Positions 21,586 through 41,788 of a stretch of 64,000 nucleotides of DNA are shown piece by piece (the first letter of the stretch is position 1; every line of letters starts with the position of its first letter). Made by a program: the position numbers and the translations under genes. The DNA comes from Arthrobacter ramosus (lineage in GTDB: Bacteria > Actinomycetota > Actinomycetes > Actinomycetales > Micrococcaceae). Location of the stretch: NCBI RefSeq assembly GCF_039535095.1, contig NZ_BAAAWN010000001.1:4712001-4776000 (forward strand). Direction: 5' to 3'. The notes beneath the pieces were generated by a model. That model saw only the letters and a list, made by a program, of their open reading frames with translations, was not told where the DNA came from and ran no database searches.

Positions 21586-21591
21586 ACGCCC

Positions 21592-21715
21592 GCTCACATA
21601 TGCCGGGTCCCGGCCGGACGCTAGCTCACATATACCGGGTCCTGACCGGACGCCCGCTCACTTCTGCTGAGGGCGGGTGGGGGCTGGGGCCGGCCCGGCT
21701 CATGGGTGAGCGGGG
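21592..21715. repeat. Intergenic repeats related to CCGGCTCATAGGTGAGC
   Basis: Two near-identical units of about 31 bases start with GCTCACATAT (21592 and 21623) and a third begins at 21655; then CCCGGCTCATGGGTGAGCGG occurs at 21694-21715 in the opposite sense. The same core recurs at 26634-26697 and 36119-36163. No gene is seen here. These look like a family of short palindromic intergenic elements. Confidence 0.55.
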
Positions 21716-21773
21716 CCCTCATCGTCAAGCTGGTTGTGAGTCATTCATGACCTGTTGATTGAAGGAGCCGGCG

Positions 21774-22178
21774 ATGGCCGTTGATAACAAGGGTTTCACG
21801 CGTGAAGAGATCCGTGAGTTCATGCATGAGTACTATTTGCAGCCGCACGGGTCGAGGAAGGTGTGGCTTGCCTCGACGTCCGTTTCCGAGTGGACGTTCC
21901 GCCGGTGGCGCAAGATGATGGTCCAGGGCGATATCGACCGTGGCCTGATTCCGCGGGAGCATGGAGGCATGGTCCCTACAAATCGTGAGCTCTCCGCGTT
22001 TGAAAAAGCACGCGCGAAGGAAATGGCTGCCCACCGTGCCGAAGTCGAAAGACTCCAGAAGCGGGTGCGGGAGCTGGAGGATACGAATTCCGCGCTGGGA
22101 AAAGCTATCGGGCTCTTGCACGACTTGAGCGTGCCAGAGCCCGATACAACCCCGACGAGCGCTCAGAACGGTTCGTAG
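21774..22178 (+). CDS. IS3-family transposase OrfA
   Basis: A 134-residue protein starting at ATG 21774 after AAGGAG. It contains a helix-turn-helix region (REEIREFMHEYY, then SEWTFRRWRKMM) and a C-terminal leucine-zipper-like coil (LQKRVRELEDTNSALGKAIG) as in OrfA of IS3 elements, where it binds DNA and, after frameshifting, forms the N-terminus of the OrfAB transposase. The frameshift heptamer is at 22097-22103. It appears intact, although the element's OrfB is broken. Confidence 0.85.
   Translation: MAVDNKGFTREEIREFMHEYYLQPHGSRKVWLASTSVSEWTFRRWRKMMVQGDIDRGLIPREHGGMVPTNRELSAFEKARAKEMAAHRAEVERLQKRVRELEDTNSALGKAIGLLHDLSVPEPDTTPTSAQNGS
22097..22103 (+). promoter_or_regulatory. Probable -1 frameshift site GGGAAAA of the IS3 element
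   Basis: Read in the orfA frame the bases are G GGA AAA, the X XXY YYZ form. A one-base backward slip enters the orfB frame, which is open without a stop from 22082 to the insertion point, so an OrfAB fusion would result. Confidence 0.6.
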
Positions 22179-22204
22179 CGGCCGAGAACAGCCTGGTCCT
22201 GGAG

Positions 22205-22870
22205 TTGCGTGTGATCATCGGCTCCCAGCGGACAGCGCTCGAGCTGGCGGGCGTGTCGCGCGGGACCTGGCATTACCGGTCCAATCCCCGTCCGGCGGTG
22301 CAGGACCCGATCCACCAGGCCGACCGGGCCTACGAATGCCGGATCAGCACCGCGCATCACGACCGGATCCTGGGGCTCATCCTGGCCGGCTGGGAGAAGG
22401 GCAACTCCGTCGACCATGCCTTCGCCACCGCTTGGGACAACGGCGTGCTGCTCGCCTCCAACCGCACGTGGTGGCGGATCGCGGCAGGGCACGAGGATCA
22501 GCAGGCCCGCCCCATCATCCCGCGCAAGCGTGGGGTCAAGCGTGGTTCCTCTGAGATGCCGGTGGTCAAGGCCACCGGCCCCTGCCAGGTCTGGTCCTGG
22601 GACATCACGGACATCTATTCAAAGTGGCAGGGGAAGGTTTTCAAGGTGTACTCCATCATGGACATCTTCTCCCGGGAGATCGTCGGCTGGCGGGCGGAGG
22701 AACGCGAGTCCGACCACCTCGCCGCGGAGATGTTCGAGACAGCCATCGCCCGGCACGGCGCCCCGCTCATCGTGCATGCCGATTCAGGCCCGGCCATGAG
22801 ATCAAACCTGCTCCGTGACACCCTCACCGTCCACGGCGTGGAACTCAGCCATAACCGCCCCTACGTCTCC
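22205..22870 (+). pseudogene. IS3-family transposase OrfB, 5' part (interrupted)
   Basis: The 222 codons encode the N-terminal helical part and most of the integrase core, with the first catalytic Asp in SWDITDIYSKW and the second in VHADSGPAM. The family sequence stops after RPYVS at 22870, where the Tn554-like element begins; the frame then ends by chance at 22885. The missing part (from NDNPFSESGFRT, including the catalytic Glu) is found 3.4 kb away at 26272, in frame. Together they make a 331-residue OrfB. Confidence 0.9.
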
Positions 22871-22873
22871 CTC

Positions 22874-22886
22874 TTAACCGGCTAAT
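22874..22886 (+). repeat. Left terminal repeat of the Tn554-like element
   Basis: TTAACCGGCTAAT, three bases inside the left junction. It is the inverse, with one mismatch, of the right end at 26256-26268, and resembles a direct copy at 26226-26238. Confidence 0.6.
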
Positions 22887-22969
22887 GCGGTTGTCTCTGC
22901 AGGCCAGCGACACGCCATGCCACGGGACCTGCCTTGTGATCCGGATCACTGCTGGTACACCTGTTCTTC

Positions 22970-24055
22970 ATGAGCAGTGATTGCGGTCTTTCGCTTGAGG
23001 AGCGTGACGGCGGCTGGGCGTTGGCCGGTCAGGACGCGCCCCAGTTCAAGCTCGTGGATGAGTACCTTGGGTATCTGACGGACAGGAACTACTCGCCGAA
23101 GACGGTGCGTTCCTACGGGTATGACCTGCTGGCGTTTTGCCGGTGGCTTCTGATCGCCGGGCATCCGCTGGCGGAGGTGAGCACGGAGGTGCTGCTTCGG
23201 TTCCTGCGTGCCTGCCGCGATGCCCGGGTTCCGGGCAGGGCGGGACCGAACGTGATCAGGCTGTCGGGGCGCCGGTTGGATCAGTACGCCGCGACGACGA
23301 TCAACCGTCGGCTGGCCGCGATCTCAGGTTTGTTCGCCTTCGCCGCGATGCGGGACCCGGAGATGAAGAACCCGGTCCCCAAGGGCCGGGAGGCGCGTTG
23401 GGTCGCATCCGGTGAGCGGAGCGGGATGCTGGCGCATACGGTCCGGCGGCCAAAGAACCGTTCCTCGCTTCGGCTGCGCGAACCACGTCGGTTGCCCAAG
23501 GCGTTGTCTCAGCCTGATGCGGCCGAGCTGCTGGCCAGTTTTCACACCTGGCGGGACCGGGCGATCGCGGGTTTGATGCTTTATTGCGGGTTGCGTTCGG
23601 CCGAGGTGCTGGCCCTGGACGTCGCGGACGTCGATATCGGCGGCCGGTGGCTGCAGGTGCTCGGCAAGGGACGGCGGGAGCGACGGGTGCCCCTTGACGC
23701 GGACGTGGCTTCCGTCATCCAGGTGTATCTGCTGGCCGAGCGGCCCGAATCCGGCAGCACAGGCCTGTTTCTCGTGGCCAAGGGGCCGAACCGGGGCCAG
23801 CCGTTGACCGCGGCCGGGCTGCGCACGGTGTTCCGTTATCACCGCGGCGTGACCGGAATCGTTGGCGGTCACCCGCACGCCTTGCGGCACACGTTCGGGA
23901 CCGCGCTGGCCGAGGCGGGCGTCGATCTGGCGGTGATGCAGGCTTTGCTCGGCCACGCGCACGTCGATACCACTGCCCGCTACATCCATCTGGCTCCAGC
24001 CCACGTGAAAGCAGAGTTCGATGCCGCTCGCGATCGCATCCGTTCCCAGCAGTGA
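22970..24055 (+). CDS. tnpA: Tyrosine recombinase TnpA of a Tn554-like element
   Basis: A 361-residue integrase, the same length as Tn554 TnpA. The N-terminal SAM-like domain (NYSPKTVRSYGYDLLAFCRWL, 40-60) is followed by a catalytic domain with Arg209 (YCGLRSAEVL), HALRH at 303-307, His329 (LLGHAHVDTTARY) and the nucleophile Tyr338. All expected catalytic residues are present, so the enzyme is probably active. It overlaps tnpB by 35 bases. TnpA and TnpB are both required for Tn554 transposition. Confidence 0.92.
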   Translation: MSSDCGLSLEERDGGWALAGQDAPQFKLVDEYLGYLTDRNYSPKTVRSYGYDLLAFCRWLLIAGHPLAEVSTEVLLRFLRACRDARVPGRAGPNVIRLSGRRLDQYAATTINRRLAAISGLFAFAAMRDPEMKNPVPKGREARWVASGERSGMLAHTVRRPKNRSSLRLREPRRLPKALSQPDAAELLASFHTWRDRAIAGLMLYCGLRSAEVLALDVADVDIGGRWLQVLGKGRRERRVPLDADVASVIQVYLLAERPESGSTGLFLVAKGPNRGQPLTAAGLRTVFRYHRGVTGIVGGHPHALRHTFGTALAEAGVDLAVMQALLGHAHVDTTARYIHLAPAHVKAEFDAARDRIRSQQ

Positions 24056-25925
24056 CCCGCACACCGCGTATCTGGACTACCTGAGGCGGACCGGCCGGGG
24101 AAACACCGCGTACTCATCAGCGGCCAGGACGTTCTTCCAGCGGTGGCCGGACCCCCGGCAATGGGCGGCCGAGCCGCTGCAGGTGCGCTTGTCCGCCGGG
24201 TCAGCTACCCGGCCGATCATCACGTTCCTGATGCTGCACCAAGGCCTGCGGCCAGGCTATGACTACCTGCTGGAACGCAAGCTCTCCAGCATCTGGCGCG
24301 AGATCCAAGACTGCCCGCTGGCAACCGACCTGGACCGGTTCATGACCGCGGCCGCCGACCTGGGATTCACCGAACGGGTCCGGTTCGCCACCGGCTCCCA
24401 GGTGCCGGTTAGGCTCCTTATTCAAACCGGCCGGCGCCTGGAACGGCTCACCCTGGCCGATCTGGCCGAGTTCACCGCGGCCTGCCGGGACAGGCAGGGG
24501 CGGACCGGCAAGGGACACGGCCACTATCTGGCGGCGGCAAGCAACGCCCAACGGGTGCTGTTCCACCTCGGAGTCCTTGATGAACTTCCCCGCGCCGGCG
24601 GCCCGGTCCCGTTCGCCGTCCGGCTGGCCCAGGTGCGTCCGCCGATCCGGGCAGCGATGATCGCCTATCTGGACCGCAAGCGCGCGACCTGCCGGCCGAA
24701 GACCGTGTCAACGATCGCGACCCGGCTCAAGCACTTCGGTGAGTTCCTGGCCGGCATCGACCCGGATCTGGACTCCGTCGCTGCCCTCGACCGAGGCAAG
24801 CACATCGAGCCTTACCTGAGCAGCATGGTCGATGCCGTCAACACCAAGAACGGTGAGGTGATCACCGTCGCTGACCGGTCCCGGCGGGTGCTCGCGCTGA
24901 TGGGGTTCCTGACCGACATCACCGAGTGGGACTGGCCCGAAGCGCCGCCGCGCAGGCTGTTGTTCCGTGACGACATTCCCAAGCTCCCGCAAACACTGCC
25001 GCGTTATTTGCCCGTCGATATCGACCGGCGCCTCACCCAGGTCCTGACCGAGTCCCCGGGAAATGAGCTGGCCGCTGCCGCCCTGCGGCTCCAACGCGCC
25101 TGCGGGTTGCGGATCGGGGAACTGCTCGATCTTGAACTGGACTGCGTCCACGAAGTCCCCGGCCACGGCAGCTGGCTGAAGGTCCCCCTCGGCAAGCTGG
25201 ACACCGAGCGGATGATCCCTCTCGATGGAGAGATCATGGAGCTGATCGACCACATAACCCGCACCAGATCGCACGGCCGGCCGCTGCCACACCCTCGTTA
25301 CCGACGCCCGGCCCAGTTCCTGTTCACCCACCACGGACGCCGGCTCGGGCAACAAGCGGTCCGCGCCGAACTCGACCGCGCCGCCGGTCTCGCCGGGCTC
25401 GAACACATCACCCCGCACCAGCTACGGCATACCTACGCCACCGCCCTGGTCAACGCCGGTGTCTCGCTGCAGGCCCTGATGGCGCTGCTGGGCCACATGT
25501 CCGCAGAGATGAGCCTGCGCTACGGACGGCTGTTCGACGCCACCGTGCGCACCGAGTACGAACGGGCCCTTGATCTGGCCAAACAACAGGCACTCACACC
25601 TCACAGCGGCAGGACCAGCCTGCCGCTCAGAGACATCACCGGCGGAAAAGACTGGAAGGACACCCCTTTGCTGAAGTCCCGCATGGCCGGAGGGTTCTGC
25701 CTGCGGGCACCCGCCCAGGGGGCTTGCGCTTACGCAAATATTTGTGAGCACTGCCCCAGCTTCCACGCCGAGCCCAGCTCACTGCCGATCCTCGCCGCGC
25801 AGCGCGTTGACGCGGACGCACTCGCCCGCGACGCCGAACAACGAGGCTGGATCGCCGAAGCCGACCGTCACAAACAGCTCATCACGCGACTCGACAAACT
25901 GATCAACGAGGCCACCACGGGATGA
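24021..25925 (+). CDS. tnpB: Tyrosine recombinase TnpB of a Tn554-like element
   Basis: A 634-residue integrase, close to Tn554 TnpB (630). The long N-terminal half carries a SAM-like DNA-binding part (MIAYLDRKRATCRPKTVSTIATRLKHF), and the catalytic half has Arg in ACGLRIGELLDLELD, HQLRH, LLGHMSAEMSL and the Tyr in RYGRL. The C-terminus includes a cysteine cluster (GFCLRAPAQGACAYANICEHC) that may bind zinc, a usual trait of this subfamily. It begins inside tnpA and its stop overlaps tnpC (ATGA), so the three are translationally coupled. Confidence 0.92.
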   Translation: MPLAIASVPSSDPHTAYLDYLRRTGRGNTAYSSAARTFFQRWPDPRQWAAEPLQVRLSAGSATRPIITFLMLHQGLRPGYDYLLERKLSSIWREIQDCPLATDLDRFMTAAADLGFTERVRFATGSQVPVRLLIQTGRRLERLTLADLAEFTAACRDRQGRTGKGHGHYLAAASNAQRVLFHLGVLDELPRAGGPVPFAVRLAQVRPPIRAAMIAYLDRKRATCRPKTVSTIATRLKHFGEFLAGIDPDLDSVAALDRGKHIEPYLSSMVDAVNTKNGEVITVADRSRRVLALMGFLTDITEWDWPEAPPRRLLFRDDIPKLPQTLPRYLPVDIDRRLTQVLTESPGNELAAAALRLQRACGLRIGELLDLELDCVHEVPGHGSWLKVPLGKLDTERMIPLDGEIMELIDHITRTRSHGRPLPHPRYRRPAQFLFTHHGRRLGQQAVRAELDRAAGLAGLEHITPHQLRHTYATALVNAGVSLQALMALLGHMSAEMSLRYGRLFDATVRTEYERALDLAKQQALTPHSGRTSLPLRDITGGKDWKDTPLLKSRMAGGFCLRAPAQGACAYANICEHCPSFHAEPSSLPILAAQRVDADALARDAEQRGWIAEADRHKQLITRLDKLINEATTG

Positions 25926-26221
25926 CCAACACGAGCACTCTCAACCGCGTCGAGCGCGCCTGCGCCGATCTCCTCCGGAACGGACAGGCAGTCACCTTCA
26001 CCGCCGTTGCCGCCCACACCGGCCTGGGCCGGACCACCCTCTATCGGGACCCAATGATCCGGGCCGTCATCGAGGAAAACCGTCACCGCGCCGCCGCCAG
26101 CGGCACCCTCACCGGCCTCACCGACGAGATCGCCACCCTCCGCGCCGCACTCGACACCCTCGCTGCCAGCGTGAGGCGCCACGAAGAACAACTCCGGAAA
26201 CTGACCGCCCGAAAAAGCTGA
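25922..26221 (+). CDS. tnpC: TnpC-like accessory protein (DUF6262 type)
   Basis: A 99-residue protein with a helix-turn-helix (AVTFTAVAAHTGLGRTTLYRDPMIRAVIEE, about 21-50) and a helical C-terminal half (LTDEIATLRAALDTLAASVRRHEEQL) likely to form a coiled coil. It sits after tnpB with a four-base overlap, as tnpC does in Tn554, where it affects the frequency and orientation of transposition; small HTH proteins of this kind commonly follow two tyrosine recombinases. Slightly shorter than Tn554 TnpC (125). Confidence 0.8.
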   Translation: MTNTSTLNRVERACADLLRNGQAVTFTAVAAHTGLGRTTLYRDPMIRAVIEENRHRAAASGTLTGLTDEIATLRAALDTLAASVRRHEEQLRKLTARKS

Positions 26222-26225
26222 ATCC

Positions 26226-26268
26226 TTAACCGGCCAATCCCCGGCATACAGGGCTATTAGCCGGATAA
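26226..26268 (+). repeat. Right end of the Tn554-like element with paired inverted arms
   Basis: TTAACCGGCCAAT (26226-26238) and ATTAGCCGGATAA (26256-26268) face each other across 17 bases. The first is like the left terminal repeat in direct sense, the second in inverted sense. Such facing arms are what tyrosine recombinases bind, so this may be the right recombination site. Confidence 0.55.
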
Positions 26269-26271
26269 TCC

Positions 26272-26601
26272 AACGACAATCCCTTCTCGGAGTCAGGCTT
26301 TCGCACGATGAAATACCGGCCCCGCTACCCCCGGATCTTTGACGATCTCGATACCGCCAGGGAATACCTCACCGGCTATGTGCACTGGTACAGCACCGAT
26401 CACAAACACTCCGGTATCGCACTGTTCTCACCATCACAAGTCCACGACGGCTCGTGGACAGAGCTCTGGGACAAACGCGACAAAGTCCACCAGGACTACT
26501 ACGAACGACACCCAGGAAGGTTCCGCCAACGACCCACCACACCGGCCCCCGCCACATACGTCGGGATCAACCTCCCCCAGACCAAACACCCCAAAAAATA
26601 G
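26272..26601 (+). pseudogene. IS3-family transposase OrfB, 3' part (detached)
   Basis: The 110 codons (NDNPFSESGFRTMKYRPRYP onward) continue the OrfB interrupted at 22870 in the same frame and supply the catalytic Glu in FSES. The family pattern GYVHWYSTDHKHSGIALFSPSQVH follows, as at the end of IS3 transposases. Left alone, only an ATG at 26308 could start translation, giving an inactive fragment. Confidence 0.88.
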
Positions 26602-26633
26602 CCCAGTGACTCCACACAGCTTGACAATTCTCG

Positions 26634-26697
26634 GGGGTTTGGGATTTCCGGCTCATAGGTGAGCCGGGGTTTGGGATTTCCGGCTCATAGGTGAGCG
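26634..26697. repeat. Two direct 32-base repeats beside rRNA operon 1
   Basis: Units 26634-26665 and 26666-26697 are nearly identical and each includes TTTCCGGCTCATAGGTGAGC. A partial third follows. Related units occur at 36119-36163 beside rRNA operon 2 and near 21694. They lie between the IS3 end and the rRNA terminator. Confidence 0.75.
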
Positions 26698-26770: not shown

Positions 26771-26889
26771 GTCCGGCGGTGTCCTACTCTCCCACACCCT
26801 CCCGGGTGCAGTACCATCGGCGCTGTGGGTCTTAGCTTCCGGGTTCGGAATGGGACCGGGCGTTTCCCCCACGCTATGACCGCCGTAAC
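26771..26889 (-). rRNA. rrf: 5S ribosomal RNA, operon 1
   Basis: Read on the minus strand from GTTACGGCGGTCATAGCG to CACCGCCGGAC, with the conserved CCCATTCCGAACCCGGAAG loop. The ends pair (GGCGGT with ACCGCC). Length about 119. Ends are placed by eye. Confidence 0.95.
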
Positions 26890-27024
26890 CCTGTTACCCG
26901 GTCCGCCGCACGGGGTGCGGGGCGGGAAGACTGGTGGTTACAACTTGTCCAAACCCGTTTGAGGGGTTCGGTGGTGTTGTTATTCAGTTGTTCGGTTCCT
27001 GGAGCAACAAACCGGTGGCGGGTT

Positions 27025-27055
27025 GTTGTTCGGGAACCACATAGTGGACGCAAGC
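27025..27055 (-). ncRNA. 3' strand of the 23S processing stem, operon 1
   Basis: This 31-base segment is complementary at 27 positions to 30378-30408 on the other side of the 23S gene. Together they would form the long stem cut by RNase III to release pre-23S rRNA. Confidence 0.65.
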
Positions 27056-27076
27056 AGTGATCGTGTTTGTGTGGTG

Positions 27077-32321
<5,245 letters not shown>

Positions 32322-36237: not shown

Positions 36238-36356
36238 GTCCGGCGGTGTCCTACTCTCCCACACCCTCCCGGGTGCAGTACCATCGGCGCTGTGGGTCTT
36301 AGCTTCCGGGTTCGGAATGGGACCGGGCGTTTCCCCCACGCTATGACCGCCGTAAC
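36238..36356 (-). rRNA. rrf: 5S ribosomal RNA, operon 2
   Basis: Same sequence as the copy at 26771-26889, shifted by 9467 bases. Confidence 0.95.
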
Positions 36357-36491
36357 CCTGTTACCCGGTCCGCCGCACGGGGTGCGGGGCGGGAAGACTG
36401 GTGGTTACAACTTGTCCAAACCCGTTTGAGGGGTTCGGTGGTGTTGTTATTCAGTTGTTCGGTTCCTGGAGCAACAAACCGGTGGCGGGTT

Positions 36492-36522
36492 GTTGTTCGG
36501 GAACCACATAGTGGACGCAAGC
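36492..36522 (-). ncRNA. 3' strand of the 23S processing stem, operon 2
   Basis: Second copy of the segment at 27025-27055; pairs with 39845-39875. Confidence 0.65.
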
Positions 36523-36543
36523 AGTGATCGTGTTTGTGTGGTG

Positions 36544-41788
<5,245 letters not shown>

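Follow-up and report, generated by a model that had tools for sequence, protein, structure and literature searches.

The orfB gene of an IS3-family insertion sequence (IS) in Arthrobacter ramosus is interrupted by a 3401-bp element that holds the genes tnpA, tnpB and tnpC and no cargo. The interrupted gene lies in a stretch of 64,000 nucleotides (the window; positions 4712001–4776000 of contig NZ_BAAAWN010000001.1, assembly GCF_039535095.1, a genome of one contig and 5.25 Mb). Judged from its sequence and those of its relatives, the element is very probably a minimal, site-specific member of the actinobacterial Tn554-related transposons that attaches within the conserved, catalytic part of IS transposase genes; it looks like a mobile element living off other mobile elements. 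A wider reading is also likely, if held with less confidence: in Actinobacteria, a whole branch of tyrosine-recombinase transposons would have adopted conserved catalytic regions of IS transposases and moved from one IS family to another as it evolved (sense insertions in IS3, IS30 and IS481; antisense ones in IS481, IS630 and IS1634; IS256 and ISL3 in outgroups), with the register of sense insertions in IS3, IS30 and IS481 fixed at eight codons ending in Glu and one spacer frozen into the element, which would make it a dedicated hyperparasite whose entry inactivates the IS copy concerned.

The host IS and the genes concerned are, in window coordinates:

21706..26639 (approximate), plus strand: host IS3-family IS, of the extent common to it and the empty copy L009
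21759..22178, plus strand: IS orfA, an open frame with a weak transpos_IS3 match (E 0.00019)
22205..22867, plus strand: 5′ part of orfB with the second catalytic Asp; rve PF00665 (E 1.4e-17) and NCBIfam transpos_IS3 (369 positions), which stops at position 309
22868..26268, plus strand: the 3401-bp element, with ends set from contig termini and from empty/occupied pairs; an identical second copy exists
22970..24055, plus strand: tnpA, tyrosine recombinase of 361 aa; Phage_integrase (E 9e-33) and XerD 1a0p alignment
24021..25925, plus strand: tnpB, long tyrosine recombinase of 634 aa; Phage_integrase (E 1.4e-26) and XerD 1a0p alignment
25922..26221, plus strand: tnpC, 99 aa, in ATGA overlap with tnpB; DUF6262 PF19776 (E 3.4e-08)
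26269..26601, plus strand: 3′ part of orfB; rve_3 (E 2.9e-09) and transpos_IS3 from position 312 (piece cut at 26272)
26290–26292, plus strand: Glu codon of the split orfB, 35 residues after the second Asp by hand count

The protein classes of the element are settled by these sequence matches, and the XerD alignments of TnpA and TnpB extend through the HxxR, GH and Tyr regions, the motifs by which tyrosine recombinases are known. All three genes run in one direction, overlap at 24021–24055 and 25922–25925, and have the Tn554-like order given in the initial annotation; they are the only genes present, with 102 non-genic bases to their left and 47 to their right. The insertion lies, as was also proposed there, between the second catalytic Asp, in the left piece of orfB, and the Glu, in the right piece; a distance of 35 residues between the two is the classical DD(35)E spacing.

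The same genome supplies further copies for comparison. A second copy of the element, identical to that in the window, occupies the corresponding site of another copy of this IS, and a third IS copy holds, at that site too, a relative 68% identical to the window element. An uninterrupted IS copy (L009, C1:4785835-) reads GTCTCC|AACGAC, which is the natural in-frame join predicted by the initial annotation; the different junction that it had allowed for in uninterrupted copies is not seen. Thus three of the four IS copies in this genome are occupied, all at the same base position, which chance cannot explain. Five rve_3 matches lie above the cut-off in the genome (the three cut copies, the empty copy and one elsewhere), along with three weaker ones.

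An element that had entered one IS lineage once, and had since been moved or inherited with that IS, would account for the element and IS that the window shares with the second copy, L005. However, the same IS also hosts the relative of only 68% identity. Moreover, the two identical elements have 0 differences over 3401 positions, whereas 8 of the 1522 positions compared differ between the IS copies that host them (a slightly longer comparison gives 9 mismatches and 1 gap), so the element has moved separately from the IS. Identical elements are also found in unrelated IS transposases: in a single Salinispora genome, a 3438-bp element is present in three identical copies, hosted by two or more different IS3s. 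Finally, an empty Rhodococcus LH-B3 plasmid and the occupied plasmid pRJH1 show 100% identity over 1200 bp to the left and 500 bp to the right, with the element between them. Together, the 68% relative, the unequal divergence of element and IS, the plasmid pair and the Salinispora copies rule out a passenger of a single IS, an explanation to which we attach almost no probability.

Definition of the ends required relatives in other targets. TCC is present at both junctions of the window element, so the breakpoint in the window IS is ambiguous by 3 nt; the relatives place the true ends at 22868 and 26268, and the ends assigned in the initial annotation, 22871–26271, were therefore 3 nt off, with the length unchanged at 3401 bp. 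The end features are:

22868..22873, plus strand: left spacer TCCCTC, which belongs to the element and is near-constant across differing targets
22874..22886, plus strand: left arm TTAACCGGCTAAT, presumed recombinase binding site; conserved, and an inverted repeat of the right arm
26225..26238, plus strand: additional arm copy by the right end, CTTAACCGGCCAAT; a similar copy lies at a comparable distance in several relatives
26256..26268, plus strand: right arm ATTAGCCGGATAA, presumed recombinase binding site, from conservation among right ends
26269..26274, plus strand: target spacer TCCAAC, retained at the right junction; the same six bases stand in the empty copy L009

In the relatives, the left end is mostly the spacer followed by TTAACCGGCTAAT or a near variant, and the right end mostly ATTAGCCGGWTAA or a near variant followed by target sequence, the element stopping at TAA (26268). 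Among 18 contigs inspected, five are element-only: L055 (the same contig as L088), L077 and L104 terminate exactly at the left spacer and at TAA, L089 begins one base later and L102 three bases earlier; the remainder are flanked or cut within the element. Closure of a circle through the 13-bp arms would give ATTAGCCGGATAA-TCCCTC-TTAACCGGCTAAT, that is, near-perfect inverted repeats around six bases, and inverted arms around six bases are an arrangement usual for tyrosine recombinase core sites. That CTTAACCGGCCAAT is a second binding site is a guess.

Relatives were sought in several samples, each of which included the window genome where genomes were counted. In the genus sample, 38 of 150 genomes had some DNA match, mostly short; TnpB matches at E 1e-60 were obtained in 10 of 295 genomes of the family sample and 6 of 396 of the phylum sample. 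Plasmid samples contributed 27 and 32 records (157 at a looser limit); six of the 32 were taken first, and five of these are in the site count. From named genome contigs, 79 loci were kept out of 112 matching stretches, a search around G439 covered 3 genomes, and viral contigs yielded a single relative, of 36% identity. Most relatives were thus sampled via TnpB, and only sites with a recognisable end motif were scored. Of the 114 matching loci, 92 combined an identified end with enough flank, and merging left 81 distinct sites; agreement of flanks joined the window copy, L005 and L006 into one site and L080 and L081 into another.

At the 81 sites, the target is an IS3-family orfB in 66, another IS transposase in 7, katG in 1 and unassigned in 7. 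A position inside the IS3 catalytic core, which the initial annotation took to be unusual, is therefore the commonest site of this lineage, and IS transposases of all kinds make up 73 of the 81. The 66 IS3 sites comprise 33 with both sides recognised, 25 in which the only side present was recognised, 7 with one of two sides and 1 with a short motif. The non-IS3 transposases are IS30 (2), IS1634 in antisense (2), IS481 (2, one in antisense) and IS630 in antisense (1); their names come from NCBIfam, apart from L140, which was named by eye on a short flank, and L147, taken as the second IS30 match. Later loci, L155/L167 and L168, lie in IS481-like transposases that resemble L132 by eye. An insertion in an ordinary gene was rejected for L093, both flanks of which prove to be IS481 transposase on the opposite strand.

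Because the flank profiles had been built from the very flanks they scored, and drift was possible, independent counts were made with public models: on the right, 54 of 61 pieces match NCBIfam transpos_IS3 and 49 of 61 match Pfam rve_3; on the left, 38 of 56 match transpos_IS3 and 39 of 56 match Pfam rve. A scan that did not depend on the genes gave 5 matches in 3 of 394 genomes, all five following the IS3 frame, the two foreign ones being judged by eye. Absence of cargo, likewise claimed at the outset, seems to extend to most relatives: of the 53 sites with both ends, 51 have an element of 3091–3520 bp, so cargo beyond these ends is not a constant companion of the three genes. The two longer elements are L068, which contains an IS, and L141, of 4571 bp.

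In the scored IS3 targets, insertion is in the sense orientation and in a single codon phase, usually with two spacer codons before Asp-Asn. The Glu is the eighth codon past the junction at 57 of 58 IS3 right junctions, and GAYAA (GACAA or GATAA) follows the spacer at 53 of 58; IS30 rows are excluded from these counts. Sense insertions into IS30 (PWQRGTNE) and IS481-like genes (PQGRGKIE, PEGRGKIE) retain the eight-codon distance, the final Glu of each octamer being presumably catalytic. The katG gene and one antisense IS481 were also entered at a GAYAA sequence, which suggests that DNA rather than protein or transcript is recognised; GAYAA is not common to the antisense IS1634 and IS630 insertions. 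In L059 (genome G350), an element of the clade described here splits a catalase-peroxidase gene at a WDN motif.

Loose targeting, with insertions in IS surviving and harmful ones elsewhere being lost, would fit the dispensability of IS copies, the single katG insertion and the seven unassigned sites. It would, however, scatter insertions across the IS, at odds with a Glu that stands at one and the same codon distance in all but one of the scored junctions, and we regard it as very unlikely. The sequences show insertion immediately ahead of a six-base target spacer, after which, in most IS3 targets, GAYAA supplies the codons of Asp-Asn in the IS3 motif SxDNxxxE. Since the DNA recognised codes for residues with hardly any freedom to vary in an active IS3 transposase, IS3-rich replicons would offer sites.

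The two spacers behave differently. The left spacer is of one type in 47 of 50 IS3 sites, and the same type occurs as right spacer in 0 of 58. Five empty/occupied pairs, representing four occupied sites (window/L009, L069/L177, L070/L179, L070/L181 and L067/L180), all have the element's six bases at the left and those of the target at the right, and these empty-site comparisons indicate that insertion is precise and without target duplication. A simple reading is a strand-specific exchange in which the left spacer is retained on both exit and entry: the recombinases would generate a circle in which the left spacer is preserved, and recombination of this circle with the target would put the element's spacer at the left end and that of the target at the right, with nothing duplicated or lost. 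Ordinary reciprocal recombination by an integrase, cutting out and pasting in rather than copying out with strand bias, is possible, if somewhat doubtful. Precise empty sites in the same genome and on plasmids are compatible with it, although these sites may never have been occupied, and GInts, which have a TnpC-like partner, yielded empty sites in some strains (PMC5385486). By contrast, repeated reciprocal cycles should mix the spacers, whereas the left one is near-constant and the right one follows the target.

Every sense insertion severs the transposase gene ahead of its catalytic Glu codon, which makes the element a possible natural brake on IS activity. Retention of the element because silencing of IS transposition benefits the host would agree with these cuts and with the interruption of three of the four IS copies in the A. 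ramosus genome, but the elements are uncommon across species (10 of 295 family and 6 of 396 phylum genomes), and we consider this explanation unlikely.

A quick tree built from TnpB (84 rows) has its 57 IS3-target rows scattered across the whole ingroup. Targets in IS30, IS1634, IS630 and sense IS481 group in a single branch of nine rows, together with one IS3 and two unassigned rows. Two outgroup lineages, with TnpB identities of 36–40%, also occupy transposase genes: one lies in IS256 transposases (L071 and L169), where the left piece stops at model position 295 of 338, and the other in ISL3 transposases (L061 in sense, L066 in antisense), at 354 of 370. The antisense ISL3 insertion is a further TnpAB element of the A. 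ramosus genome itself (C1:4617610-4619421; L066, also within L007), whose TnpB is ~37–39% identical.

Several observations weigh against the site-specific reading or narrow it. The IS3 counts are confined to the sense frame and one phase, the initial flank search having covered six frames. Of the 114 loci, 22 are unscored (6 without usable flank, 11 without the end motif, 5 with too little flank), and those lacking the motif include the outgroup lineages L007, L032, L061, L066, L071 and L152. At 7 of the 66 IS3 sites a second flank is present and was not recognised as IS3, and 8 of the 81 sites are unassigned (7) or in katG (1); L103, one of the seven unassigned, has IS3 frames by eye and is seemingly one base out of register. 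The gene-independent scan is small: three of its matches are in the window's own genome, L162 is the same DNA as L115, and L164 alone is new. Left spacers deviate at three IS3 sites (ACCCTC twice, CCCCTA once), and they read CCCCCC in the IS30 pair, TCTCCT in L140 and TCCTTT in L142. A sixth empty/occupied pair, L072/L178, is mismatched, the right half of L072 coming from another IS3. Six more distant plasmid loci (25–31% TnpB identity) showed no clear transposase target in incomplete gene tables and frames read by eye, and the claim is therefore restricted to relatives of ~36% TnpB identity and above. The movement itself (excision, circle, transposition) is something we infer from sequence.

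The surroundings of the host IS deserve a brief description. Two complete rRNA operons lie on the minus strand, at window positions 26771–32321 and 36238–41788, ~9.5 kb apart, and ~130 bases separate the end of the element-bearing IS from the first operon's 5S gene. Short repeats resembling GTGAGCGGGC surround the host IS (window 21588–21661; L005 2106–2278 and 7908–8017), forming 32-bp tandem arrays beside the second copy, L005. The motif GTGAGCG stands at the left edge of all four IS copies, so the IS may itself target a GTGAGCGGGC-like repeat. Nesting can go three deep: on the Mycolicibacterium gilvum plasmid pMSPYR101 an IS1182-like insertion lies inside the element (L068, 3242–4789). At L072, L028, L078 and L106, the left and right flanks seemingly come from different genes or IS copies, as expected if copies of the element recombine with one another and rearrange the genome.

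A target that encodes the catalytic residues of a very common mobile gene would provide many harmless and self-renewing sites, by the same logic as for introns in conserved genes. Strand-biased recombination is testable in this system, as the exchanged strand can be read from the two six-base spacers. The attachment site and the fixed spacer seem new: in the open-access literature searched (titles and abstract openings), no paper came up on attachment of such elements to IS transposases, and with subscription journals outside that scope, priority is not certain.

Among known systems, Tn554 itself resembles the window element in gene order, gene sizes and absence of target duplication. It uses the att554 site in radC and carries resistance cargo, whereas the window element, which has no cargo, lies in an IS3 orfB and its relatives lie mostly in IS transposases. 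The tnpA-tnpB-tnpC arrangement is a further point of likeness, with the DUF6262 protein as a putative homologue of Tn554 TnpC. Tn554 also has target specificity and a 6-bp footprint (PMC10214605). The actinobacterial Tn554-related class to which we assign the element was defined by Van Houdt et al. in 2012 (PMC3414803): as here, adjacent short and long tyrosine recombinases are accompanied by TnpC, often in multiple copies. The section of that paper devoted to these elements gives no insertion sites, and the attachment site identified here answers the question, left open by the 2012 description, of where the multi-copy elements insert. RIT elements likewise place three genes between inverted ends, and one lies within the transposase gene of a Tn6049-related transposon; their genes are, however, three full recombinases, whereas the third gene here encodes a 99-aa DUF6262 protein (PMC3414803, PMC10214605). 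GInts combine recombinase genes with a TnpC-like partner, and six-base staggered cuts have been proposed for them, but they have four genes, large cargo and other targets such as ssb (PMC5385486). The strand-biased circularizing integrative elements (SE) share the six-base spacer between inverted motifs, the pairing of an ordinary and a large recombinase, and strand bias, and differ in having four core genes (intA, tfp, intB and srap) instead of three (PMC10214605). A single insertion of SE-6945 into insJ of IS3 is described, and the parts of that account used here report no specialisation for IS (PMC10214605). The polarity differs: in SE and, by citation, in Tn554-related elements the carried six bases are at the right and those of the target at the left (PMC10214605), whereas in the family of the window element, by the spacer counts and all five concordant pairs, this arrangement is reversed.

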